48,932 nucleotides of DNA from a virus. The position numbers were made by a program, and so were the translations under genes. Each line of letters opens with the position of its first letter. Within the stretch, counting starts at the first letter, position 1. Location: IMG/VR virus record IMGVR_UViG_3300047408_000317, positions 1-48,932 of that record. One strand, 5' to 3'. This document shows, piece by piece, positions 14,699 to 38,249 of the stretch. The notes beneath the pieces were generated by a model. The model searched no databases, was not told the DNA's origin, and saw only the letters and a program-made list of their open reading frames with translations.

Positions 14699-15988
14699 TC
14701 ATTTCCGCAGTGTCCGGACACGACGAGACCGTTTTGGGGGCGAAACCTTACCACCCCCCTTACCGGGGCGCCGGACCGCCGCGGGCGCTTGAGCGGCGCG
14801 CCGCGCGACCCGCGACAGCTTCGAGACCGACGCCACCTGGTGCTCCTGAATGGCGGCCTGCGCGTAGCGCGCGCTCTGCTCGAGCGTGGCGTGGCCGAGC
14901 AGATCCTGCACGAGCTTGAGGTTCTGCGTCAGGCGGAAGACTTCCGTCCCGAACGTGTGCCGGGTCAACTCGTAGAGGCTCAGCGTCTCCGGGATCGGCG
15001 GCAGCCGCCGGGCGGCGCGGGCTTTGTTCGCGGCCCGGATCGCGCGCTTGATCGATCGGCCCAGCGACGTCGCGGAGAACGGCCGATTCGCGCCCAGCGC
15101 AAAGAAGCGCTTCAGGACGGGCACCGCAGCCGGCATCAACTGCCGCGGCGTCACCTTGCGCCGCGCCCGCGCGCGCCGCGAGCGCCGGCCCTTCGCGCGC
15201 TTCGGCGGCGTCACGGTCAAGAGATCCCAATTGACGTGCGTCGGCTGCAGCTGCCCGAGCTGCTTCGGTGGACAGCCGGTCACGAGCATGGTCTCGAACC
15301 GGATGCGGCTCAGCGAGCCGGCTTCGCGGACCTCGTCTTTCTTCGAGCGGGTGACATCCGGCATGTAGCTGAGGATTTCGTACGCGAGCGCGAACGTCTG
15401 GCCCTTCGGCAACTCGTCGGGCGGCTCCGCCTCGTCGACGTCGCGCACGGGGTTCTTCGCGTGCAATCCGTCCAGCACGGTGAACAGGTTCTCGAGCGCG
15501 CGGAGCCGATGATTGACGGCCGACGCCGAGAGCGGCCGCGCGTGCGTTTCCCAGCGCGCTTTCTCGCCCGGCGGTTTGACGAGCACGCGGCGCGGCCCGA
15601 CGGTCAGCCATTGGTCGCGCTGCGCGCGGATCTCGTGCGGCTGGATGTCCGTCCGCGGCCGTTCACCGAAGAGCGCGGCCCACTCACGAATGTGTTTGCG
15701 GCGATCCTTGATCCCGACCATCGTCTGCACGGCCTCGAGGTAGGTCTCCGCGTCGGCGAGAAAGCCCTCGCCGACCGGGATCGGATCGTCGCCTTGCTTC
15801 TGGCGCGCTTCGACGCGGCGATCCTCGCGCCAGGCCTGCATCTCTTTGATCGAGGGTTCGTACGTCGGCGTGCGCGTGAACCGCTTCGATCGGACGCGGC
15901 CCGTCGGATAGCCAGGCCAGGGCACCCAGACGAAGACGCGGTACCCGGTCGCCGTGCGGACGATGCCGGTGGGGAGGGTACGGGCCAT
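14699..15988 (-). CDS. int: tyrosine-family phage integrase
   Basis: 429 residues. An N-terminal DNA-arm-binding part and a SAM-like core-binding helix region (about 90-200) are followed by the catalytic domain. In it 'YELTRHTFGTEVF' gives the second Arg and His, 'LLGHATLEQSARYAQA' the last His and the nucleophilic Tyr. The usual first Arg (in TGxR) is replaced: the segment reads TGCPPKQLGQL. I recall similar Pro-containing variants in some phage integrases, so it may still be active. The C-terminus is strongly basic. It ends next to a tRNA-derived attP core, which fixes its role as the integration enzyme. Confidence 0.85.
   Translation of the reverse strand: MARTLPTGIVRTATGYRVFVWVPWPGYPTGRVRSKRFTRTPTYEPSIKEMQAWREDRRVEARQKQGDDPIPVGEGFLADAETYLEAVQTMVGIKDRRKHIREWAALFGERPRTDIQPHEIRAQRDQWLTVGPRRVLVKPPGEKARWETHARPLSASAVNHRLRALENLFTVLDGLHAKNPVRDVDEAEPPDELPKGQTFALAYEILSYMPDVTRSKKDEVREAGSLSRIRFETMLVTGCPPKQLGQLQPTHVNWDLLTVTPPKRAKGRRSRRARARRKVTPRQLMPAAVPVLKRFFALGANRPFSATSLGRSIKRAIRAANKARAARRLPPIPETLSLYELTRHTFGTEVFRLTQNLKLVQDLLGHATLEQSARYAQAAIQEHQVASVSKLSRVARRAAQAPAAVRRPGKGGGKVSPPKRSRRVRTLRK
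14740..14764 (+). other. integrase arm-type sites, right arm of attP (predicted)
   Basis: CCTTACC occurs at 14746-14752 and 14758-14764, the first within an exact 13-bp copy of the left-arm word. This pair lies inside the last codons of the integrase gene, where the protein has a basic, probably unstructured tail. Confidence 0.45.
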
Positions 15989-19550: not shown

Positions 19551-20387
19551 ATGGGTATTTTAGCAGAGCTAGAGACGAGAGGCGCACGGAATGGTGTACG
19601 GCGCGACGGTCGACCGCGAGAGTTTGGGGCGAAAGCGTCCGCGTCTATTAGTAGGGCCGAAAAAGATCATGCGACCGACCGGTTACATGATCGGCGACTT
19701 TCGCCTACTGCGGTCGCGTACCTCCGCGTGTCGACCGAGGAACAGGCGATCTCCGGGCTGGGGCTCGACGCGCAGCGGGCCAGTCTCTACGGGAAGGCCG
19801 CCCAGCTCGGGCTGCCGCTCACGGTCTGCGAAGAACCCGCGATGTGTGGCGCGGCGGCGCTGGAGGATCGGCCCGTGCTGATGCAGGCCGTGGCGGCGCT
19901 CGGCCGCGGCGATGTGCTGCTGGTCGCGAAGCGCGATCGCCTCGGGCGGGATTTTCTGGAGGTCGGCCTGATTGAACGACTCGTGAAGAAACGCGGCGCG
20001 CGCGTCGTCTCCGCCGCCGGGGAAGGCACCGCCGATGACGAACCGTCGAGTGTGTTCACGCGGCACGTGATGGATGCCGTCGCCGAACTGGAACACGCCC
20101 ACATTCGCGCGCGCACGAAGGCCGGCCTGACGGCGAAGCGCGCCCGCGGCGAACGTGCCGGCACGATCCCGTTCGGTTTTCAACTGGCGGCCGACGATCC
20201 CGACCACCAGCGGATCGAACCGGCGCCGGTGGAGCAGCGTCTGGTCGCGCAGTTTCGCGCGTTGCGCGCCGCCGGCAAGACCTACGCCGAAATCGCCGCC
20301 ATCGTGACCGCCGCCGGCGCCACCACGCGACGGGGCACGCCCTGGCGGTTTCAGTACATCGCGCAGATGTTGAAGGTGCGCGCATGA
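19551..20387 (+). CDS. serine recombinase (resolvase/invertase family)
   Basis: 278 residues. 'AVAYLRVSTEEQAISGLGLD' (about residue 54 on) is the catalytic N-terminal motif with the nucleophile Ser; 'VAKRDRLGRDF' carries the conserved Arg pair. The C-terminal part (PIEQR-like 'PVEQRLVAQFRALRAAGKTY ... AAIVTAAGATTRRGTPW') is a recombinase linker and helix-turn-helix. The first 50 residues before the fold are atypical, yet no later in-frame start exists. The stop overlaps the start of a tyrosine recombinase gene. Short for a phage serine integrase, so resolution or inversion is more likely than integration. Confidence 0.8.
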   Translation: MGILAELETRGARNGVRRDGRPREFGAKASASISRAEKDHATDRLHDRRLSPTAVAYLRVSTEEQAISGLGLDAQRASLYGKAAQLGLPLTVCEEPAMCGAAALEDRPVLMQAVAALGRGDVLLVAKRDRLGRDFLEVGLIERLVKKRGARVVSAAGEGTADDEPSSVFTRHVMDAVAELEHAHIRARTKAGLTAKRARGERAGTIPFGFQLAADDPDHQRIEPAPVEQRLVAQFRALRAAGKTYAEIAAIVTAAGATTRRGTPWRFQYIAQMLKVRA

Positions 20388-21013
20388 GCGGCTGGGTCTC
20401 TCAGTGGAAACAAGCCAAGGTTCTTGAGGCGTCACAGGAAGGCGCGTTGCTGGCGCACGTGGGCACCACCGCCTATCCAGACCGGAATCGGCTGATCGTG
20501 TTGCTGTCGTTCAAGGCCGGACTGAGGGCCATTGAGATCGCGAGCCTGCGCTGGCCGATGATGACGGCGGTTGACGGTAGCGTGGATGTGGTCATTGCGC
20601 TGCCTGACGACGCGGTCAAGGGACGCCGCGGTCGACTGGTCCCCCTCCACGCGGAGGTGCATTCCGCCCTCACGATCCTGCGCCAGACCGAGGAACCGAA
20701 CGACTTCGTCATTCGGTTTCGTCGCGGATCACGCGACCGCGTCACTCGGTCCCATGCCGTGCAGGCGCTGTTCCGCGGGTGGTATCGCGCGCTGCGGTTC
20801 GGCGGGGCGTCATCACATAGCGGACGGCGCACCTTCTCGACCCAGATGGCGCGTCATCTCCCAAGTGCCTCGATTCGCGATCTCCAAGTGCTCCTGGGAC
20901 ATACCGAGCTTTCGAGTACGGGCCGGTATATCGATCCGAATCCGGAAGTGCATCGGCAGATTGTGGCGCTGACCGCGATCAAGCCGGGTGACCGCAAGGT
21001 GGCCCGCCGATGA
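20384..21013 (+). CDS. XerC/D-like tyrosine recombinase
   Basis: 209 residues, essentially a bare catalytic domain. All signature residues are visible: Arg in 'FKAGLRAIEIASL', His and Arg in 'SSHSGRRTF', His in 'LLGHTELSSTGRYIDP' and the Tyr six residues later. No full N-terminal core-binding domain is present. It is coupled by ATGA overlap to the serine recombinase gene. Possible roles are dimer resolution of a plasmid-like form or control of a DNA switch. The true integrase is more likely the gene at 14699-15988 by its attP. Confidence 0.8.
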   Translation: MSGWVSQWKQAKVLEASQEGALLAHVGTTAYPDRNRLIVLLSFKAGLRAIEIASLRWPMMTAVDGSVDVVIALPDDAVKGRRGRLVPLHAEVHSALTILRQTEEPNDFVIRFRRGSRDRVTRSHAVQALFRGWYRALRFGGASSHSGRRTFSTQMARHLPSASIRDLQVLLGHTELSSTGRYIDPNPEVHRQIVALTAIKPGDRKVARR

Positions 21014-22747: not shown

Positions 22748-23698
22748 ATGAGACGTCTGTCGATCCTCGAGCAACGGATCGTCTGGACGCGGTTCGAACG
22801 ACAGACCGACAAGGACGTGCTGCGGGCGATGGCCCGGTGGTTCTGCTGGCGGGCGGATGGCACCTGTCGCAGCTTCTACGTCCCGGAGTTGTCCCATAAG
22901 GCGGGCGTGGCGCTGCGATCGACGGAGCGGGCGCTCGAGCGCCTCGAGGCGGACTGGTGGATCGACGTGCTGGCGCGGCGGCATCGGCATCCGACGATGT
23001 ATCGCATCCACGTCGCGCGGTTGGCGACCGCGGATCCGGAGGCGTTGTCCGCCACTCTGGCGGACAGATCGGATTTTGACCGCCACAGTGGCGGACAAGA
23101 CGACGAGTGGCGGACAAGGAATGGGCCTGATTCTGAAAAAGTGGCGGACCAAAGTACAGAAGAAGAAGTACGTACCGAGATCCGTACTCCTGCTGCTGAT
23201 CGTACGTTGGTCCGCCAGAGTGGCGGACAACCTGGCGGTCAACGCCCGGAGCATCCCGACGTCGCCGCGTTTCTCGAATGGGCCGTCGCCACATATCCCC
23301 TCCACGCGCACGGCGCGCACCTGGTGGTCGACCGCGAGCGCGACGGGCACTTGGTGCACGGGCTGCTCGAGCATTACCCGCTCGAGCGCCTCCAGGCGAT
23401 GACGGTGCGAGGCTGGACGATCGAGGCGGACGGCGATCCGACGAGTCATGCGTCCTGGATCGCGCGCAGTGATCGGAGCCTCCGCGTCATCCGACACAAG
23501 GCGGCGTTCCTCGAGCGCGTCGTCGTCGGCGCGCAGCAGTTGACGTTCGGGGCCCTCGAGCCGGTGAAGTTGACCGCCCGGGAGATCCAGGAGGCGAAAG
23601 AGATTCACCACCGGTGGGGCTACTGTCGCCACGAAGAGCCCCACGACAACTGGAAAGACTGCGTGCGCGCGATCGCGCTGGCGAGGCACATCGGATGA
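22748..23698 (+). CDS. replication initiator-like protein
   Basis: 316 residues. Residues 40-90 (FYVPELSHKAGVALRSTERA, LERLEADWWIDVLARR) form a winged helix-turn-helix like those at the start of phage O/RepA-type initiators. A polar linker follows (residues 98-165) that is encoded by a cluster of iteron-like repeats, as in lambda O where the origin lies inside the gene. The C-terminal helical part (VVDRERDGHLVHGLLEHYPL, LTAREIQEAKEIHHRWGYC) would contact host replication proteins. No ATPase or primase motif is present. The stop lies within the first degenerate half-repeat of the array that follows. Confidence 0.65.
   Translation: MRRLSILEQRIVWTRFERQTDKDVLRAMARWFCWRADGTCRSFYVPELSHKAGVALRSTERALERLEADWWIDVLARRHRHPTMYRIHVARLATADPEALSATLADRSDFDRHSGGQDDEWRTRNGPDSEKVADQSTEEEVRTEIRTPAADRTLVRQSGGQPGGQRPEHPDVAAFLEWAVATYPLHAHGAHLVVDRERDGHLVHGLLEHYPLERLQAMTVRGWTIEADGDPTSHASWIARSDRSLRVIRHKAAFLERVVVGAQQLTFGALEPVKLTAREIQEAKEIHHRWGYCRHEEPHDNWKDCVRAIALARHIG
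23045..23242 (+). repeat. iteron cluster, predicted replication origin
   Basis: The word TGGCGGACAA or close variants recurs in both orientations: inverted pairs at 23046-23066 (3-nt centre), 23076-23098 and 23207-23230, single copies at 23108-23117, 23142-23152 and 23233-23242. All lie in the part of the initiator gene that encodes a linker. Repeated, oriented sites inside an initiator gene are typical of phage origins. Between the outer groups is a stretch with GTAC repeats (23155-23206). Confidence 0.65.
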
Positions 23699-23960
23699 CG
23701 GAGCCAAGCGCAGGGAGCGCACCACAAGTGCAGAGCGAGCCAGAAAAGTGAAGAGCACCAGACGTGTAGAGCGAGCCGTTCCTCGGGAGTGCACCAAAAC
23801 AGTCGAGCGAGCCATAAGTGGTGAGGGGCACCCAGACGTACAGAGCGAGCCAGAAAGTCGAAGCGCACCAGCGTTCAAGAGCGAGCCATGAATCAAGAGC
23901 GCACCAAGCACGTTGAGCGACCCATGTCAGGCGAGGGCACCAACTTCTCCGAGGACGGAC
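23697..23960 (+). repeat. TIGR-like array 1 (upstream of tas)
   Basis: Fifteen 10-bp half-repeats occur every 18 bp (two steps of 18+1). Two types alternate: R1 GAGCGAGCCA (e.g. 23733, 23805, 23843, 23879) and R2 GAGCGCACCA or variants (23715, 23751, 23787, 23861, 23897, 23933). The 14 spacers are 8-9 nt and all different. R1+spacer+R2+spacer is 36 bp. The first unit (to 23706) is degenerate and overlaps the initiator stop; the last (GAGGACGGAC, 23951-23960) is degenerate and includes the likely ribosome-binding site of the tas gene. Confidence 0.9.
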
Positions 23961-23964
23961 CTAT

Positions 23965-24807
23965 ATGAGCGACACCGAACACCCGGACGACTACCGCGGC
24001 GTCGAAGCCGTGACGCGACTCTCGCGCGATTTGAAAAAGGCCGCGCAGACCCTGTCGCCCGACGAAGCGCGGTACCTCGTCGATGCGTACTACCAGATGC
24101 AGGGTGACCGGATCCGCTCCGCCAACCAGGTCCGCGCCCTGACCGCGAGCGAGGAGCCGCATCAGACGATCGCCTGGCTGGCCGACAACGCCGGCGTCCT
24201 CGAGCGGTCGATTGCCAGCGCGCTCGACGCGTATTCCAAGGCGTCGCGGGTCGGTCAGTGGGCGCGCTCGATCGTCGGCGTCGGGCCGGTGATCGCCGCC
24301 GGTCTGCTCGCGCACATCGACATCACGAAGGCGCCGACGGCGGGGCACATCTGGCGCTTTGCCGGCCTCGATCCGACGGTCAGCTGGGAGAAAGGCCAGC
24401 GGCGGCCGTGGAACGCGTCGCTCAAAACGCTCTGCTGGAAGATCGGCGAATCGTTCGTGAAGGTCTCCGGGAACGAGGACGACATCTACGGCCATCTCTA
24501 CGTCGAGCGGAAGGCCTTCGAGCAGCACCGCAACGACGCCGGCGCACTCGCGGACCAAGCCGCGGCGAAGATCGCGAAGTTCAAGATCGGGAAGTCGACC
24601 GACGCGTACAAGGCGTACGCCGCGGGGAAGCTGCCCCCAGCGCACGTGCACGCGCGCGCGAAACGCTGGGCGGTGAAGTTATTCCTCGCGCATTTTCAGG
24701 CGGTCGCGTATCGCGATCACCACGGGACGGACGCCCCGAAGCCCTACATCCTGACGCAGGAGGGCGGCCACGCGCACGAGATCGCCGTCCCGAACTGGCC
24801 GTTCTAG
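23965..24807 (+). CDS. tasA-like: Tas-like protein: IS110/Nop-type RNA-binding protein without nuclease
   Basis: 280 residues. The N-terminal third is helical (VTRLSRDLKKAAQTLSPDEA). Residues 102-137 (SIVGVGPVIAAGLLAHIDI, then AGHIWRFAGLDP) match the helix-hairpin core of the IS110/IS116/IS902 C-terminal domain, which is structurally akin to the Nop domain of box C/D RNPs. Conserved basic stretches follow (RRPWNASLKTLCWKIGESF, 146-164; HVHARAKRWAVKLFLAHF, 227-244). The N-terminal DEDD nuclease of IS110 is absent, and there is no RuvC or HNH motif. Lying between two 36-bp-period arrays, it fits the Tas proteins of TIGR-Tas systems, nuclease-less type. Older pipelines would call it a transposase. 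Confidence 0.85.
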   Translation: MSDTEHPDDYRGVEAVTRLSRDLKKAAQTLSPDEARYLVDAYYQMQGDRIRSANQVRALTASEEPHQTIAWLADNAGVLERSIASALDAYSKASRVGQWARSIVGVGPVIAAGLLAHIDITKAPTAGHIWRFAGLDPTVSWEKGQRRPWNASLKTLCWKIGESFVKVSGNEDDIYGHLYVERKAFEQHRNDAGALADQAAAKIAKFKIGKSTDAYKAYAAGKLPPAHVHARAKRWAVKLFLAHFQAVAYRDHHGTDAPKPYILTQEGGHAHEIAVPNWPF

Positions 24808-25620
24808 CCATGGCTGAAGAGCGCACCATTCATCAGGAGCGAGCCAGGTCTCGAGAAGCGCACCAAGGAAGTCGAGCGAGCCACGGTGAATGAGGGCACC
24901 ACAAAGGCCGAGCGAGCCAGCCCCTATGAGAGCGCCAAACTCTACGAGCGAGCCATGTTCAGAGAGCGCACCACTAATGGAGAGCGCGCCAAAGTTAATG
25001 AGCGAGCCATTGGGCTCGAGCGTACCAAGTTCTTTGAGCGAGCCACTAGAAGGAAGGGCACCAGACAGAGGGAGCGAGCCAGTATCGAGGAGGGCACCAA
25101 GAAACCGGAGCGAGCCACATTCGCCGAGCGCGCCAAGTTGAACGAGCGAGCCATAGATGTGGAGCGCACCGAGAGGGCTGAGCGAGCCATCAGAAGAGAG
25201 CGCACCAGAATGTCGGAGCGAGCCGCGCCCGTTGAGCGCACCAGTACGCAGGAGCGAGCCATTGATGCGAGCGCACCAACAACGACGAGCGAGCCGGGGA
25301 TGATGAGCGCACCACATTGAAGGAGCGAGCCATCGACCATCAGTGCACCGTAGACCGCGAGCGAGCCACAGCAGTGCAGCGCACCAAGAAGAACGAGCGA
25401 GCCAGATATACGGAGCGTACCAAAGCGAGGGAGCGAGCCAGCGAGAAAGAGCGCACCAGTGTAGAAGAGCGAGCCACCAGGTTGGAGCGCACCAAAGTAA
25501 TTGAGCGAGCCACTGGAAGAGTGAGCACCAGTTCTATCGAGCGAGCCATAGGCGTTGAGCGCACCAGCAGCAGCGAGCGGGCCAATCACTGCGAGCGCAC
25601 CAAGATAGCTGAGCGCGAAA
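24801..25620 (+). repeat. TIGR-like array 2 (downstream of tas)
   Basis: Forty-six half-repeats at 18-bp spacing over 820 bp, with 45 unique spacers (43 of 8 nt, one 9 nt ending 24855, one 7 nt at 25262-25268). R1 GAGCGAGCCA is exact in 18 positions; R2 is looser, with GAGCGCACCA in 10 and forms such as GAGGGCACCA, GAGCGTACCA and CAGCGCACCA elsewhere. Both ends decay: GTTCTAGCCA at 24801 (over the tas stop) and GAGCGCGAAA at 25611. The R1/R2 alternation slips once at 24982-25009, where GAGCGCGCCA precedes an R1. About 22 potential two-spacer guide units. Confidence 0.92.
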
Positions 25621-25754: not shown

Positions 25755-26065
25755 GCACGACGAAGGCACGCCGGGTGATTCCCCTCACGCCGGTCGACGA
25801 CCGACCGATCTCCGCCCGCGTGCGGCGGAGTCTCCGGATCAGCGATCAGCATGCCCGGGACAACGCGCGCACCCAGATCGCGTATCACGGACCCGGGCGC
25901 ACGTTCGGCGAGCTCGCGATCGGCGAGTGCTTCACCTGGCCACCGCCGATGCCTCGCGGGTCCGAGCCGATCGTCAAAGTCGATGCGACGCACTACGCAT
26001 GGAGCCGCGGCCGCGGGACGGCAGAGTCGTTCTATCGCGTCGAGACGTGGGAGCTGCCGGCATGA
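25751..26065 (+). CDS. hypothetical protein between TIGR block and HerA-like gene
   Basis: 104 residues from ATG 25751 (an earlier in-frame ATG at 25733 would overlap more). 'RTFGELAIGECFTWPPPMPR' and 'IVKVDATHYAWSRGRGTAES' resemble small phage proteins of beta-type fold with no known function. Overlaps both neighbours by 4 nt. Confidence 0.5.
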   Translation: MSTTKARRVIPLTPVDDRPISARVRRSLRISDQHARDNARTQIAYHGPGRTFGELAIGECFTWPPPMPRGSEPIVKVDATHYAWSRGRGTAESFYRVETWELPA

Positions 26066-27930
26066 CGAAGCCGCTGCGTCTCGCGAAAGGTCTCGTATTG
26101 CCGGCCGACGCCGTCACGCAGACCTTCGCGATCTTCGGCAAGCGCGGGTCCGGCAAAACGAACGGCGCGACCGTGCTCGTCGAGGAGCTGCTGAAGGCGC
26201 ATCTCCCGGTCGTCATCCTGGATCCGGTCGACGCCTGGTGGGGCTTGAAGGCGAGCTTCGACGGCAAGGGACCGGGCTTTCCAATCTACGTGTTCGGCGG
26301 CGCGCATGGCGATCTCCCGCTCGAGCCGACCTCCGGCGCGCTGATCGCGAACGTCGTCGCCACCGAACGGCTGCCCATGATCCTGTCAATGAAAACGTGG
26401 GGTGTCGCCGAACGCGCGCGGTTCGTGACGGACTTCGCGAAGCAGCTGCTGCAGGTCAACAAAGAGCCCGTGATGATGGTGCTCGAGGAAGCCGACGCGT
26501 TCATCCCGCAGCGGCCGGCGAAAGGCGAAGAGGCGATGCTGGGCGCGATGGATCGCCTAGTGCGCTGGGGCCGCGGCTCCGGCGTCGGCTGCACGATCGT
26601 CACGCAGAGAAGTGCCAAGGTCAACAAGGACGTCACCACCCAGGCCGAGACCTTGATCGCGTTCCGTACGACCGGGCCGCAGGACCGCGACGCGATCGAC
26701 GGCTGGATCAAGCATCACGCCGGCGACGAGCGCCGCGAGGAGGTCCTCTCGACGTTGCCGGCGCTGCCGACCGGCACGGCCTGGGTGTGGAGTCCGGAGT
26801 GGCTCGAGTTCTTCGGCCAGGCCGCCTTCCGCCGGCGACAGACGTTCGACTCCGCGGCGACGCCGAAGGTCGGGCAGAAGGTGCGGCCGCCCAAGCAGCT
26901 CGCCGCGGTCGACCTCGAGCAGCTCCGCACGCAGATGGCGGAGACCGTCGAGAAGGCGAAGGCCGAGGATCCGCGGGAGCTGAAGAAGACGATCGCGGAC
27001 CTGAAGAAACAGCTTGCCGCTAAGCAACCGGCGCCGGCGGCGGTGAAAGGAAAGACCGTCGCGGCGCTGACGGACGCCGACCGCGCGCTGCTTGGAAGAC
27101 TTGGCGCGGCGCTCGAGACTATGGCCGAGACCCTGAAGAGCGCCGAGCAGGGCCTGTCCGTTCGAATGGGCGAGCGCATGGCGAAGGCCGTTGCGGAGTT
27201 CAACGCCGGGCTGGACCGCGTGATCGATGCGCCGCGCCACGAGTTCGCGAAACTGCTCGAGCAGAAAGGCTTCCAGAAGATCCTCGGCAAGCTCTCAGCC
27301 CTGAGCCCTCAGCCATCAGCTCACGATTCCCGCCGCCCTGCAGTCTCGAGGGCCGTACCACCGACTGGCCGATCCTCGGCCGCGACTCGCCCGAATGAAA
27401 CGCGAGCGCCGAGAGGGACTGACGGGTCGGGTGCGGCGGGAGACGTCTCACCGGCACGCCAGAAGATCCTGAACGGCTTGGCGTTCCTCGCCGGCATCGG
27501 GGTGCCGAGCGCCGACAAGACACAGCTGGCCCTGATCGTCGGCGTCAGTCCGACCAGCGGCGGGTACTTCAACAATCTTGGGGCGCTGCGCTCGTCGGGG
27601 CTGATCGAGTATCCGACCGGCGGCACGGTCGCGCTTACCGCCACGGGCGCCGGCATCGCCTCCACCGATGGCGTGCCGTCTACGACACGCGAGCTCCACG
27701 ACGCCATCCGGGCCAAGCTGCCGCCGGCGAAATGGAAGATTCTCGAGACGCTGATCAGCGTCTATCCAGCGTCTCTGACGAAAGAAGACCTCGCCGGCGC
27801 GATCGCCGTCTCTCCGACGTCGGGCGGCTACTTCAACAATCTGGGCTCGCTGCGCAGCCTCGGACTGATCAGTTATCCGCGACCGTCGGAAGTCGCCGCT
27901 CAACCGGTGCTCTTCCTGGATGAACGCTGA
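26062..27930 (+). CDS. HerA/FtsK-like P-loop ATPase with duplicated winged-helix tail
   Basis: 622 residues. Walker A GKRGSGKT (26-33) and Walker B VMMVLEEADAF (137-147), then 'IVTQRSAKVNKDVTTQAETLI' (sensor and arginine region), place the first 270 residues in the HerA/DUF87 branch of DNA-pumping ATPases. A coiled, Lys/Glu-rich linker (about 300-345) leads to two copies of a winged-helix unit (about 468-530 and 558-605), each with VSPTSGGYFNNLG and a 'LRS.GLI.YP' wing. HerA proteins move along double-stranded DNA, often with a nuclease partner; none is evident here. Possible role in replication, recombination or defence. Confidence 0.8.
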   Translation: MTKPLRLAKGLVLPADAVTQTFAIFGKRGSGKTNGATVLVEELLKAHLPVVILDPVDAWWGLKASFDGKGPGFPIYVFGGAHGDLPLEPTSGALIANVVATERLPMILSMKTWGVAERARFVTDFAKQLLQVNKEPVMMVLEEADAFIPQRPAKGEEAMLGAMDRLVRWGRGSGVGCTIVTQRSAKVNKDVTTQAETLIAFRTTGPQDRDAIDGWIKHHAGDERREEVLSTLPALPTGTAWVWSPEWLEFFGQAAFRRRQTFDSAATPKVGQKVRPPKQLAAVDLEQLRTQMAETVEKAKAEDPRELKKTIADLKKQLAAKQPAPAAVKGKTVAALTDADRALLGRLGAALETMAETLKSAEQGLSVRMGERMAKAVAEFNAGLDRVIDAPRHEFAKLLEQKGFQKILGKLSALSPQPSAHDSRRPAVSRAVPPTGRSSAATRPNETRAPRGTDGSGAAGDVSPARQKILNGLAFLAGIGVPSADKTQLALIVGVSPTSGGYFNNLGALRSSGLIEYPTGGTVALTATGAGIASTDGVPSTTRELHDAIRAKLPPAKWKILETLISVYPASLTKEDLAGAIAVSPTSGGYFNNLGSLRSLGLISYPRPSEVAAQPVLFLDER

Positions 27931-33767: not shown

Positions 33768-33929
33768 CTAGCCAGTGATGCCGACGGCGCGTTCCCACGC
33801 CGTGTGTTTCACGGTGTTGAGCACACGATGGCCGGTGACTGACGACAGGAAAAACAGCACCGACGCGGTGAACGCCCACGGCCGACTCACCACCGGTTGC
33901 GCCCAGCCGACTCCAAACCATGTCTTCAT
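33768..33929 (-). CDS. small membrane protein after Ku
   Basis: 53 residues with one hydrophobic segment (PWAFTASVLFFLSSVTG, residues 17-33). Its start overlaps the Ku stop as ATGA, so it is translated from the same message. Function unknown. Confidence 0.45.
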   Translation of the reverse strand: MKTWFGVGWAQPVVSRPWAFTASVLFFLSSVTGHRVLNTVKHTAWERAVGITG

Positions 33930-34771
33930 GAGGCCCTCTTTCGTGTGACCGGCAGCGCCGCCTTCGCCGGCAGTTTCTTCACCGCCTCCAGGCTCATCAC
34001 CAGCGCATCGCGGAAGTGCATGACGGTCGGCGCCTGTACGGGCGGAATCACGATCTCCTCACCCGCGATCTTGGCGTCGATCAGCCGGCGCAGGTCAGCC
34101 TGATACTGATCGGTGAAGTCGGCCAGGTGCAGCGCGCCGGTGCGCGCGGCGATCACCTGGCGCGCCAGCGCGACCTCCTTCGGGTCGACGTCGACGGCGA
34201 GGTCCCCGATCGTCGCGACATCCCGAATCTCGCCCGCGTGGTGCAGCGTGTGCAGCATCAGGATCGGCGTCGTCGCCGTCCATCCAGGCCACGCGGCTGG
34301 CGACAACGGGCGCACGGCCACCAAGTACTCGCGGCCGTACAGCGCGAGCTTCCCGATGCCGACCGTGTCTTTCATCCCCGCGCTCATCACGGCATACGCG
34401 TCGCCGGCGGGCCCGCCGTCCGGCGCGAGGTAATAGGTCCGATCGATGTAGAGCGGATCGAGCGCCGCGGCCGGCGCGAACTGCAGCAGGTCGATCACCC
34501 GCGTCGACTCCGGCTTCACCGCGTCGAGCTCGTGCTCGTTCAGGATGACGTACCGGCCCTTTTCGAATTCGAAGCCCTTCACGATCTCCGCGCTCGGCAC
34601 TTCGCGCTTGCAGCTCGTGCACCATTTGCGCTGCGTCACCCGCGTCTGACAGTCGTCGTGGAGTTGGTTGAACGACAGCGACTCACTGTTCTCGGTGGCG
34701 GGGAACACCTTGATCGGAATCCGGACGCGGCCGATCTGCAGGACGCCTTTCCAGGTCGGACGCGCGCTCAT
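33926..34771 (-). CDS. ku: phage-encoded Ku DNA end-binding protein
   Basis: 281 residues from ATG 34771. 'MSARPTWKGVLQIGRVRIPI', 'SFNQLHDDC', 'KWCTSCKREVPSAEIVKGFE' and 'YVILNEHELDAVKPEST' are classic bacterial Ku features, continuing with 'IDRTYYLAPDGG', 'REYLVAVRPLSPAAWPGW' and 'TLHHAGEIRD'. The beta-barrel ring that threads onto DNA ends is complete and the length is normal. No LigD gene is present in the window, so it may borrow a host ligase, protect or circularise phage DNA ends, or block exonucleases. Ku is known from a few mycobacteriophages. The gene is in an operon with a helix-turn-helix regulator. Confidence 0.9.
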   Translation of the reverse strand: MSARPTWKGVLQIGRVRIPIKVFPATENSESLSFNQLHDDCQTRVTQRKWCTSCKREVPSAEIVKGFEFEKGRYVILNEHELDAVKPESTRVIDLLQFAPAAALDPLYIDRTYYLAPDGGPAGDAYAVMSAGMKDTVGIGKLALYGREYLVAVRPLSPAAWPGWTATTPILMLHTLHHAGEIRDVATIGDLAVDVDPKEVALARQVIAARTGALHLADFTDQYQADLRRLIDAKIAGEEIVIPPVQAPTVMHFRDALVMSLEAVKKLPAKAALPVTRKRAS

Positions 34772-35031
34772 TGCCGCAGGTCCATGCCGCCGACGGCCAT
34801 CTGGATCGGCTGCAGCGCGGCCCCGAACGTGTGCGACACGAGTGTCACCGGCACGCCGGCGTTCAGCAGGATCAGATCGTTCGGCGTCGGCTGCCACTGC
34901 GACACGACCCGCCCGTCCGGCGTGACGAGCGACGGCAGCGTCTGATACTCAGGCTGATGCTCCGCGATCGCGACCTCGCGTGTGCCTGGCGGCAGCAGGA
35001 ACAGCGCCGAATTCGGATGAATGATGTCCAT
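34768..35031 (-). CDS. hypothetical protein upstream of Ku
   Basis: 87 residues; start chosen just after the stop of the regulator gene. Beta-like with 'PDGRVVSQWQPTPNDLILLN' and 'GVPVTLVSHTFG'. The stop overlaps the Ku start (ATGA), so the two are coupled and may act together. No family recognised. Confidence 0.5.
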   Translation of the reverse strand: MDIIHPNSALFLLPPGTREVAIAEHQPEYQTLPSLVTPDGRVVSQWQPTPNDLILLNAGVPVTLVSHTFGAALQPIQMAVGGMDLRQ

Positions 35032-35784: not shown

Positions 35785-36342
35785 ATGGCTAATACCCGAC
35801 CCCGGACGCGTGCTGCTCGAGCGACGCCGACGGCGCCAGCCGTGGCCGTCGCCGCCGCCGCACCACGCCTGACTCGTCGCGAGCTCGCCGAGGCGATGGG
35901 TGTCGTGATGATGACGATCACGAAATGGGAAGCGCGCGGCATGCCGGTGCTCGAGCGCGGCCGCCCTGGCAAGCCGTCGTACTACGACCTCGAGGCCTGC
36001 GAGGCGTGGAAGGCGGCCGTCGAGGAACAGGCGCAGGCCAGTGGCACCGTCGACGTCGCCAAAGAGCGCGCGCTACGCGAGCGGGCGCAAGCCGCCCTCG
36101 CGAATCAGACGTATCAGATGCGATCCGGCGAGCTGTTGCCGCGCGCCGAGGTCGAGCGCCAGTGGGAGGCCGAGATCCTCGCGGTCCGGACGAAGCTGCT
36201 GCAGATCGCGCCGCTGTTCGCCGAGCGCGTCTATCAGGCGGCCCTGACTGACGGGATTCCTGGCGTGGAACGGCTGCTGGGCGACTGCGTCGATGAGGTG
36301 CTGCGCGAATTGTCCGGCGTCCAGGACGGGGCGATCGCGTGA
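35785..36342 (+). CDS. terminase small subunit, Nu1-like
   Basis: 185 residues. After a Pro/Ala-rich start, 'LTRRELAEAMGVVMMTITKW' (residues 31-50) is the winged helix-turn-helix of lambda Nu1-type subunits, followed by 'GKPSYYDLEACEAW' wing and a long helical part that would assemble with the large subunit. It overlaps the large-subunit gene by 4 nt. The protein recognises the packaging site and positions the cutting enzyme. Confidence 0.8.
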   Translation: MANTRPRTRAARATPTAPAVAVAAAAPRLTRRELAEAMGVVMMTITKWEARGMPVLERGRPGKPSYYDLEACEAWKAAVEEQAQASGTVDVAKERALRERAQAALANQTYQMRSGELLPRAEVERQWEAEILAVRTKLLQIAPLFAERVYQAALTDGIPGVERLLGDCVDEVLRELSGVQDGAIA

Positions 36343-38249
36343 CGACCGACGTCCTCGTCGGCATCGCGTCCGACGACACCGCGCGCGTGCAGGCCTCGCT
36401 GCGGCGCGCGAAGGCGAGTTACGCGCCGGCGCCGCGGCTGACGATCTCCGAATTCTCCGCACGCGAGATCGTCGTGACGTCGGGCCCGCTCGCCGGCACG
36501 CGCTGGCGCAACGACTTCGCGCCCTACCAGGTTGGCATCATGGACGCGCCGCTCGAGGACGGCGTCGAGATCGTCGTGGTGATGGGCTCGTCGCAGTGGG
36601 GCAAGACGGCGATCGCGGTCAACGTCGTCGGGTATCACATCAAACACGACCCGTGCACGATTCTGATCGTCGAGCCCACGCTCGATCCGATGGCCACCGA
36701 CTTTGCGACCAACCGGCTCGAGCCGGTGATCGCCGCGAGCCCGGCGCTGCAGGACTGCTTCAACAAGAAGAAGTCGAAGGACGCGCAGAACACCAAGCTG
36801 AACAAACGGTTCCGCGGCGGGTCTCTGGCGCTGGCCGGCGCCAATTCGGCGGCGTCGCTGGCCGCGCGGCCGACGCGGCTGCTCATCCTCGACGAGGTCG
36901 ATCGCTATCCCCTCGAGCTGCCCGGCGAAGGCAACACGCTCGCGATCGCCATGAAGCGGACGACGACGTTCCGCCGGCGCAAGCGGATCCTGATGCTCAG
37001 CTCGCCGACGATCGAGGGCGCGCCGATTCACGACTACTACGAGCGTGGCGATCAGCGGAAGTACTTCGTGCCGTGCCCGGAATGCGGCTTCATGCACCCG
37101 TTCGAGTGGGCCAACGTCAAGTGGCGGAACGACGATCCGGCGACCGCGCGCCTGGACTGCCCGGGCTGCGGCCACGAGCTCGACGATGCGGCGCGCATCG
37201 CGGTGCTGGCGCGCGGCGAGTGGCGGCCGACGAATCCGACGCGACGTGAAAAGCGGATTGTCTCGTTCCATCTCTGGGAAGCGTACTCACCGTTATCGTC
37301 GCTCTCGGAAATCGTCGCGAACTTCCTGTCGGCCACCAAGAAAAAGAAGGCCGGCGATCGCAGCGAGCTGCACACCTGGCAGAACACGACGCTCGGCGAG
37401 CCGGTCCCGCCCGATGACGGCGAAGGTGTCGAGTCGAGCTCGCTGCTGCTGCGGCGCGAACCCTCGGTGCCTGACGTCGACGTGCCGTACGGCGCCTGCT
37501 GTCTGACGATGGGCGTCGACGTCCAGGACGACCGGCTCGAGCTGCTCGTGATCGGCTGGGGGCCGGGCGAAGAATCCTGGATCGTCGACCGCGACACCTT
37601 GCCGGGCGACACCTCGCAGCCGGGGCCGTGGGCGCTGCTCGACGCGGTCCTCGATGCGCCGTATCGCCACGCCGGCGGGCAACTGCTCCACATTCAGGCG
37701 ACTTGCATCGACTCGGCCGGGCACCGCACGACGCTGGTCTACGACTGGGCGGAGAAGAAAGCCTCCCGGCGCGTCTACGCGATCATCGGCCGCGATGGCC
37801 AGCGCCCGATCGTCTCGTCGCCTTCGCCGAAGAAGTGGGGCCGCAATCAGCGCCAGGTGCCGCTCTACACGGTCGGCGTCGACGCGGCGAAGGGGCTGGT
37901 CATGGACCGGCTCAAAGTCACCGAGCGCGGCGCCGGCTACGTGCACCTGCCGGATGCGGCCTGGTGCGACGAGGAATTTGCCGCGCAGTTGGTCAGTGAG
38001 CGCTTGGTGCGCCGCAAGGTGCGCGGGCTGCCGGTGCAGGTCTGGAAAAAAATCCGCACCCGGAACGAAGCGCTCGACTGCGCGGTGTATGCGACCGCGG
38101 CGATGCGCCTGCTGAATCCGCGCCTCCAGGTGATGGCGCAGCAACTCGCCGCGACGAGCCGGCCGCCGCCGGCGCCGGGCGCGCCCGCGGCCCCGGCGGG
38201 CCCGACGTCGCGGCGGTCGCGCGTCAACCGGAGCAGTTACTTGTCATGA
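36339..38249 (+). CDS. terminase large subunit, lambda GpA type
   Basis: 636 residues. Walker A-like GSSQWGKT (83-90) and Walker B LLILDEVDRY (181-190) define the packaging ATPase. Two Cys pairs (CPEC at 246-249, CPGC at 274-277) form a zinc element typical of the GpA family. The C-terminal nuclease begins near 385 (MGVDVQDDRLELLVIGWG), with the catalytic Asp residues. It cuts concatemeric DNA at cos and drives it into the prohead. Length is close to lambda A (641). Confidence 0.93.
   Translation: MTTDVLVGIASDDTARVQASLRRAKASYAPAPRLTISEFSAREIVVTSGPLAGTRWRNDFAPYQVGIMDAPLEDGVEIVVVMGSSQWGKTAIAVNVVGYHIKHDPCTILIVEPTLDPMATDFATNRLEPVIAASPALQDCFNKKKSKDAQNTKLNKRFRGGSLALAGANSAASLAARPTRLLILDEVDRYPLELPGEGNTLAIAMKRTTTFRRRKRILMLSSPTIEGAPIHDYYERGDQRKYFVPCPECGFMHPFEWANVKWRNDDPATARLDCPGCGHELDDAARIAVLARGEWRPTNPTRREKRIVSFHLWEAYSPLSSLSEIVANFLSATKKKKAGDRSELHTWQNTTLGEPVPPDDGEGVESSSLLLRREPSVPDVDVPYGACCLTMGVDVQDDRLELLVIGWGPGEESWIVDRDTLPGDTSQPGPWALLDAVLDAPYRHAGGQLLHIQATCIDSAGHRTTLVYDWAEKKASRRVYAIIGRDGQRPIVSSPSPKKWGRNQRQVPLYTVGVDAAKGLVMDRLKVTERGAGYVHLPDAAWCDEEFAAQLVSERLVRRKVRGLPVQVWKKIRTRNEALDCAVYATAAMRLLNPRLQVMAQQLAATSRPPPAPGAPAAPAGPTSRRSRVNRSSYLS

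Follow-up and report, generated by a model that had tools for sequence, protein, structure and literature searches.

We describe here a large TIGR-TasA locus carried by a virus, IMG/VR record IMGVR_UViG_3300047408_000317, which consists of the virus contig alone (48,932 nt; hereafter the window). Two arrays of alternating short repeats, making up 29 guide units in all, flank tasA, the gene for a Nop-domain protein with no nuclease domain. Membership of this protein in the TIGR-Tas family is practically certain. We hold with high confidence that the locus as a whole is best explained as a TIGR-TasA system of a temperate tailed phage, acting by guide-directed silencing without cleavage. It is a further, large and well-formed member of the known TIGR-TasA kind (Faure et al. 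2025, PMC12045711) and not a separate kind. As to what such systems silence, a sister system in a cultured acidobacterium provides a lead towards phage satellites. The features of the locus, in window coordinates, are:

23700..23956, + strand: upstream TIGR array, 7 guide units (edge - spacer A - loop - spacer B) with 7 loops
23843..23888, + strand: guide unit GAAAGTCG / GCGTTCAA, also found in L002 and L003, the two nearest relatives, where its place in the array is different
23965..24807, + strand: tasA, 280-residue Nop-domain protein without a nuclease domain
24806..25615, + strand: downstream TIGR array, 22 guide units with 22 loops
24982..24991, + strand: extra half-repeat GAGCGCGCCA, between the loop at 24964 and the edge at 25000, breaking strict alternation
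25108..25153, + strand: guide unit CATTCGCC / AGTTGAAC, also retained in relative L002

An exact parse of the arrays yields a 10-nt edge repeat, GAGCGAGCCA, alternating with a 10-nt loop repeat, GAGCGCACCA, with 8-nt spacers between them and a unit length of 36 nt. Seven units lie upstream of tasA and 22 downstream, together with one odd half-repeat; the figure of about 29 potential guides given in a first-pass annotation of the sequence is thus exact. When the window was scanned for the pattern edge-N8-loop-N8-edge with up to 3 mismatches, 25 matches were obtained, all on the + strand between positions 23697 and 25584, as against none in 100 dinucleotide-preserving shuffles of the window. The alternating 10-bp half-repeats and 36-bp unit of the annotation therefore stand as the general rule, from which the window departs in a few spacers of 7 or 9 nt, in one 12-nt loop repeat of the upstream array (23823-23834) and in the extra half-repeat. 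Dual-repeat arrays are defined by two alternating repeats of 8-12 nt and short spacers (8-9 nt, up to 12), and this is what both window arrays show.

We assigned GAGCGAGCCA as the edge and GAGCGCACCA as the loop because the arrays open with the 3' half of the former (AGCCA) and close with its 5' half (GAGCG). The same assignment follows from the ability of GAGCGAGCCA to form an extra C4-G7 pair, which GAGCGCACCA cannot form, and from the family, in which GAGCGAGCCA is more common than any other edge consensus. The upstream array starts at about 23700, right behind the stop codon of the preceding gene, with a 5'-truncated edge (GGAGCCA), and ends at 23951, some 10 nt ahead of the tasA start codon, with a 3'-truncated edge (GAGGAC...; GAGGACGGACCTATATG). 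To judge from its position, this last truncated edge may be the ribosome-binding site of tasA. The downstream array begins with the 5'-truncated edge AGCCA (24806-24810), which overlaps the TAG stop codon of tasA, and finishes with the 3'-truncated edge GAGCG (25611-25615). Edge repeats are almost perfect across the 22 downstream units, degenerate repeats occurring mostly in the upstream array. A consensus scan found no promoter for the locus, and a scan against Rfam returned nothing relevant.

The identity of the protein was examined at the levels of profile and fold. TasA scores 209.1 bits with NCBI model NF052498 ("TIGR-Tas system RNA-guided endonuclease"; cut-off 100) and 26.8 bits with the NCBI IS110 model (cut-off 140), which it matches through residues 55-139 alone. 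Transposase_20 is the only Pfam family above cut-off (residues 101-139, E 3e-5) and lies in the part common with IS110, the earlier description having given the 280-residue protein an IS110-like C-terminal domain; neither a DEDD (RuvC-like) catalytic domain nor a full-length IS110 match was found in TasA. The protein also matches phrog_4285 (E 2e-50). When a profile built from 37 relatives was compared with the PDB, TasR (9mty, E 5e-22) and TasH (21kl, E 2e-14) ranked ahead of IS621 (8wt6, E 1.7e-4). An AlphaFold model of TasA (predicted local distance difference test score 87.5) gave a concordant result: its 11 best Foldseek matches in the PDB are all TasH or TasR structures (E 6e-8 to 5e-5), IS110 members coming next at about 0.04. 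Profile and predicted fold thus both bear out the TIGR-Tas membership proposed in the first-pass annotation, and a fold unlike Nop/IS110, which would have spoken against it, is not what the model shows. The first long (coiled-coil) helix of the model begins at residue 32 and so leaves no space for an N-terminal nuclease. Since the nuclease domain is absent, the protein is of the TasA type, as against TasR and TasH, and had been correctly described as nuclease-less. The gene is intact, 45 residues being invariant among the 37 relatives. TasA is not listed in PADLOC.

A scan of IMG/VR identified 80 viral relatives of TasA, nearly all of which have dual-repeat arrays of 34-37 bp beside or near the gene; a further 20 loci, many of them with arrays, were obtained from assemblies of bacteria and archaea. 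In one branch of the relatives the loop repeat is 8 nt and the unit 34 bp long. Positions 3 and 8 of the edge can pair (G-C, A-T, T-A or G-T) in 55 of 57 array consensuses, and positions 4 and 7 in 54 of 57; at positions 4 and 7 of the loop, the combinations are mostly A.A or C.A. According to the published rule, the box C/D pair is present in both repeats and the second pair in the edge only (PMC12045711). The covariation of edge and loop fits this structural requirement of the guide RNA (tigRNA). Edge repeats are almost invariant across many phages. Six loci (L016, L037, L038, L094, L095 and L096) with units of 34 or 35 bp and loops of 8 or 9 nt (such as GAACATCA and GATGTAGCA) still have GAGCGAGCCA as the edge.

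The guides themselves are far from conserved. The window TasA is 89% identical to TasA of L002 and L003; of the 29 window units, two are in common with L002 and one with L003. Units common to these arrays are whole (A, loop, B), repositioned, and built with differing repeat variants, and the GAAAGTCG/GCGTTCAA unit is present in all three phages. Among divergent arrays in general, shared spacer pairs span the loop in 58 cases and the edge in 29. Sharing of whole units, combined with the small number of common guides, indicates that guides change fast and unit by unit. Near-duplicate units occur within a single array from Propionivibrio, where GAAATAAC and GAAGTAAC, differing by one to a few bases, are each combined with CACTGGTA, as if variants of one target were being covered or a unit had been duplicated. 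Near-duplicates within arrays were noted at L091:5700-6000, L096:4868-4945 and L097:1458-1700. The G+C fraction of the spacers is 0.49, compared to 0.65 for the phage, so that phage-type sequence is not an obvious source of spacers. In all arrays T or A is favoured as the first base of a spacer and G is rare, and the spacers of GC-rich phages are far GC-poorer than the phage. Similarity between A and B, as palindromic or direct-repeat targets would produce, gave z < 2 and is not claimed.

The 8-nt 3' overhangs and the strand pairing described for published systems (PMC12045711) served as the basis for deriving a target geometry. As spacers A and B pair with opposite DNA strands, a target should show, along one of its strands, the sequence of A and then, after a gap of 0-2 bp, the reverse complement of B. 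The targets predicted in this way for the window units retained between relatives are GAAAGTCGTTGAACGC and CATTCGCCGTTCAACT.

The most informative match was obtained with the sister system. Acidobacteriaceae bacterium KBS 96 contains, in a scaffold of 6.7 Mb, a TasA prophage whose array has six units; about 1,000 genomes of Acidobacteriota, Pseudomonadota and the Halomonas family contained no cultured hosts besides two already known. KBS 96 guide 2 (TAAAAGCA/TTCGATTC) predicts the target TAAAAGCAGAATCGAA, which occurs exactly (16/16) and only once in the KBS 96 genome, where it covers nucleotides 26-41 of an excisionase-like gene with 86 codons (phrog_66). Guide 5 (CTCCAGGT/ACTTACAA) matches 14 contiguous positions of 16 in the O-like replication gene of the same element, its mismatches being confined to the first two bases of spacer A. 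The element is located as follows:

L105:11900-20000 plus L106:1-2200 (KB906767.1, about 6,321,900-6,332,200): KBS 96 satellite-like element, about 10.3 kb, at tRNA-Glu

Its order is tRNA-Glu, integrase and helix-turn-helix repressor, followed divergently by the excisionase-like gene, the O-like gene, the small terminase subunit, capsid and prohead protease. A tRNA-like 3' end read by eye at the far side suggests a putative attachment site. Capsid-forming phage-inducible chromosomal islands (cf-PICIs) are recognized as small integrated elements with an integrase, regulators, and a capsid and small terminase of their own, lacking large terminase or tail genes. In the part of the open reading frames of the KBS 96 element that was scanned, the genes listed above were found and one structural protein weakly matched tail families. 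The element has the look of a capsid-forming satellite, in an acidobacterium. Three of its proteins have counterparts in the TasA prophage region, with identities of 68% for the capsid (352 residues), 48% for the protease and 58% for the end of the O-like protein. At the guide-5 site, the replication-gene homologue of the prophage itself has a different sequence, and within the 60-kb prophage region the best matches have 4 mismatches for guide 5 and 3 for guide 2. This pattern is consistent with a phage that keeps in check a parasite borrowing from it.

The specificity of the match was assessed in several ways. On the element, KBS 96 guides 1 to 6 have 4, 0, 5, 4, 2 and 3 mismatches, respectively. 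Among 1,021 guides from other arrays, none matched the element with 0-1 mismatch, four did so with two, and none had 14 contiguous positions. Thirty combinations of mispaired spacers, as well as edge-spanning pairs and other geometries, always gave at least 3 mismatches on the element. None of 72 control targets had an exact match anywhere in the KBS 96 genome, and 236 kb around other integrases contained no match within 2 mismatches. Elsewhere, the L092 genome had an exact cognate match, the only one among six metagenome-assembled host genomes; it lies in a non-mobile context and was judged to be due to chance, as was a 15/16 match in a GC-rich ccmF-like gene of Halomonas NO4. With a chance exact match not being rare and the L092 match looking like one, the weight of the KBS 96 case lies on the second guide within the same 10 kb. 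The joint chance was conservatively put at about 0.004 (0.2 × about 0.02, the latter being the chance that another guide also matches the element with no more than two mismatches); this leaves aside the mobility of the element and the location of the matches in early genes. The KBS 96 match is probably a true target, a good lead rather than proof.

A number of observations weigh against the explanation favoured here. Over nine host genomes, chance would produce about 0.2 exact cognate matches (an estimate assuming equal base frequencies). Guide 5 has two mismatches, four KBS 96 guides are without a match, and the lead comes from one genome, in which the prophage is a presumed helper of the element, on the strength of the genes they share. 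No target of the window guides was identified in the window itself, among its nearest relatives or in capsid relatives. In the array-masked window, the 29 guide pairs did not match in excess of shuffled pairs, whichever geometry or pairing was used, and cross-targeting showed no excess in the relatives' flanks, in the contigs of six relatives (full or near-full), or in 426 kb from relatives of the satellite capsid. In 1.29 Mb from relatives of the window capsid and O-like protein there was no exact match; here window guides gave 23 matches with two mismatches (10.1 with shuffled pairs) and 2 with one (1.3 with shuffled pairs), and no excess is claimed. Exact scans of IMG/VR returned 2 and 21 matches for the two conserved window guides and 33 for KBS 96 guide 2, all scattered and with no co-occurring guides; those of the two window guides look like background. 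Finally, a consensus scan found no terminator-like site on the + strand past 25615, unlike the typical published array.

The way in which the system would work can be outlined by analogy with published systems. The arrays would be transcribed on the + strand together with tasA, and the transcript cut inside the edge repeats to give 36-nt guides of the form AGCCA - A8 - GAGCGCACCA - B8 - GAGCG. One guide would be held by a TasA dimer, with spacer A on one DNA strand and spacer B on the other. Since TasA lacks a nuclease, its action would consist in binding, opening and bending the DNA, thereby blocking transcription or replication, and this silencing would presumably be directed at satellites in competition with the phage. 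Non-cleaving RNA-guided DNA binding by TasA is very probable. That satellites are the general target, for the phage of the window as well, is a tentative proposal, about which we are nearly evenly divided and lean slightly to the doubtful side. The same reserve applies to the fuller version, in which TasA and its fast-changing array might act on the early genes, for excision and replication, of satellites that have a capsid and parasitise the phage, its homologous genes being spared. If this is true, natural targets of a TIGR system have come to light for the first time in KBS 96; the describing paper names neither natural targets nor a role for TasA (PMC12045711). With array and element in one cultured bacterium, two guides, the right geometry and a spared homologue, the KBS 96 pair makes the target question directly testable. 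The window locus, for its part, adds a 29-guide TasA system to a family described in 2025 that has one experimentally studied cousin.

An ordinary TIGR-TasA system could instead be aimed at other phages, for superinfection exclusion or inter-phage competition. Arms-race targeting of this kind would be expected to leave the closest relatives with almost no guides in common, which is what is seen, and inter-element competition is also among the proposals of the published authors (PMC12045711). Moreover, L002 guide TCAGGTTT / ACCTGAGC matches L301, a related phage contig with no detected array and an O-like protein 56% identical to that of the window, exactly once and once more with one mismatch. 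This target, however, is repeat-like (TCAGGT twice), which makes chance likelier, and we rank it as weak; and all guides pooled show no excess of exact matches over shuffled pairs in contigs of relatives or capsid relatives. We regard other phages as an unlikely main target, if the most serious competitor of satellites.

Clearly less probable is a role at host chromosomal sites, where guides would bring TasA to regulate genes or aid integration. An aid to the integrase was proposed in the paper on the grounds that TasR bends its target DNA by about 180 degrees (PMC12045711), and the Halomonas NO4 and L092 matches, near and exact, do fall in chromosomal genes. Yet each of these matches stands alone, the genes concerned are unrelated and of housekeeping type, and the frequency is about that of chance; moreover, 29 different, fast-changing guides suit a fixed integration site poorly. 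It is scarcely credible, lastly, that what looks like a guide array is a relic, decayed or without function, or else a repeat with a structural or protein-coding role. The degenerate repeats, mostly upstream, and the failure of consensus scans to find a promoter or terminator might suggest so, but the 22 downstream units with their nearly perfect edges do not, nor does an intact tasA with its invariant residues; base-pair covariation across phages and conservation of whole units between divergent arrays show selection. Silencing without cleavage by a TIGR-TasA system thus remains our preferred explanation.

The remaining features of the window relevant to its phage nature are:

14702-15988, - strand: tyrosine integrase
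19551-20387 and 20384-21013, + strand: two overlapping recombinase genes, tyrosine integrase and serine resolvase
26062-27930, + strand: HerA/FtsK-like ATPase, downstream of the array on the same strand, matched by PADLOC HerA models
33926-34897, - strand: Ku protein, a bacterial double-strand-break end-joining factor (PF02735, E 3e-38)
36339-38249: true large terminase, separate from the HerA/FtsK-like ATPase gene

The phage thus has three recombinase genes, for two tyrosine integrases and a serine resolvase overlapping the second of these. Because integrase genes are present, "temperate", the term used in the earlier annotation, is a fair one for this phage. Upstream of the array, the O-like gene contains repeated inverted sequences (CCGCCACTCTGGCGG type; 23044-23230) that resemble the iterons of replication origins; similar repeats are found in the O-like gene of L301 (6227-6408).

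The proposed role has a precedent in phage ICP1, which carries a CRISPR-Cas system against its satellite PLE. Both would be phage-borne RNA-guided systems directed at the phage's satellite; the machineries are unrelated, TasA is not expected to cleave and comes with no adaptation genes, and its role is inferred from one genome. With IS110-family transposases (IS621, ISCro4), TasA shares a related Nop/RNA-binding domain (Transposase_20; PDB 8wt6 E 1.7e-4), but it has neither the DEDD catalytic domain nor a bridge RNA and fails the NCBI IS110 model.

The closest counterparts are the TIGR-TasA dual-repeat systems (PMC12045711), TasA being the commonest effector type of TIGR systems (PMC12045711). 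Common to these and the window are a solo Nop-domain protein beside a dual-repeat array, the 36-nt unit, truncated edges at the array ends, box C/D-like covariation and carriage by phages and proviruses. The window differs in having 29 units where 5-15 are usual, an array on either side of the gene, GA...CCA motifs where TasR arrays have UG...CCA, no terminator found and one extra half-repeat. By tblastn, the window TasA also reaches Salicola phage CGphi29, which is the SpTasH locus of the paper, whose protein AGH31812 scores 118.9 bits with NF052498. SpTIGR-TasH differs from the window in the N-terminal HNH nuclease of TasH, the loop AAGACAACCA and an array ending at a terminator-like hairpin. 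Nevertheless, its Nop part is 28% identical to TasA across 177 residues, and the array, read directly, combines the edge AGCGAGCCA with 8-nt spacers, nearly identical to the window; it is from this Salicola array that 36-nt RNAs were measured by the authors (PMC12045711).

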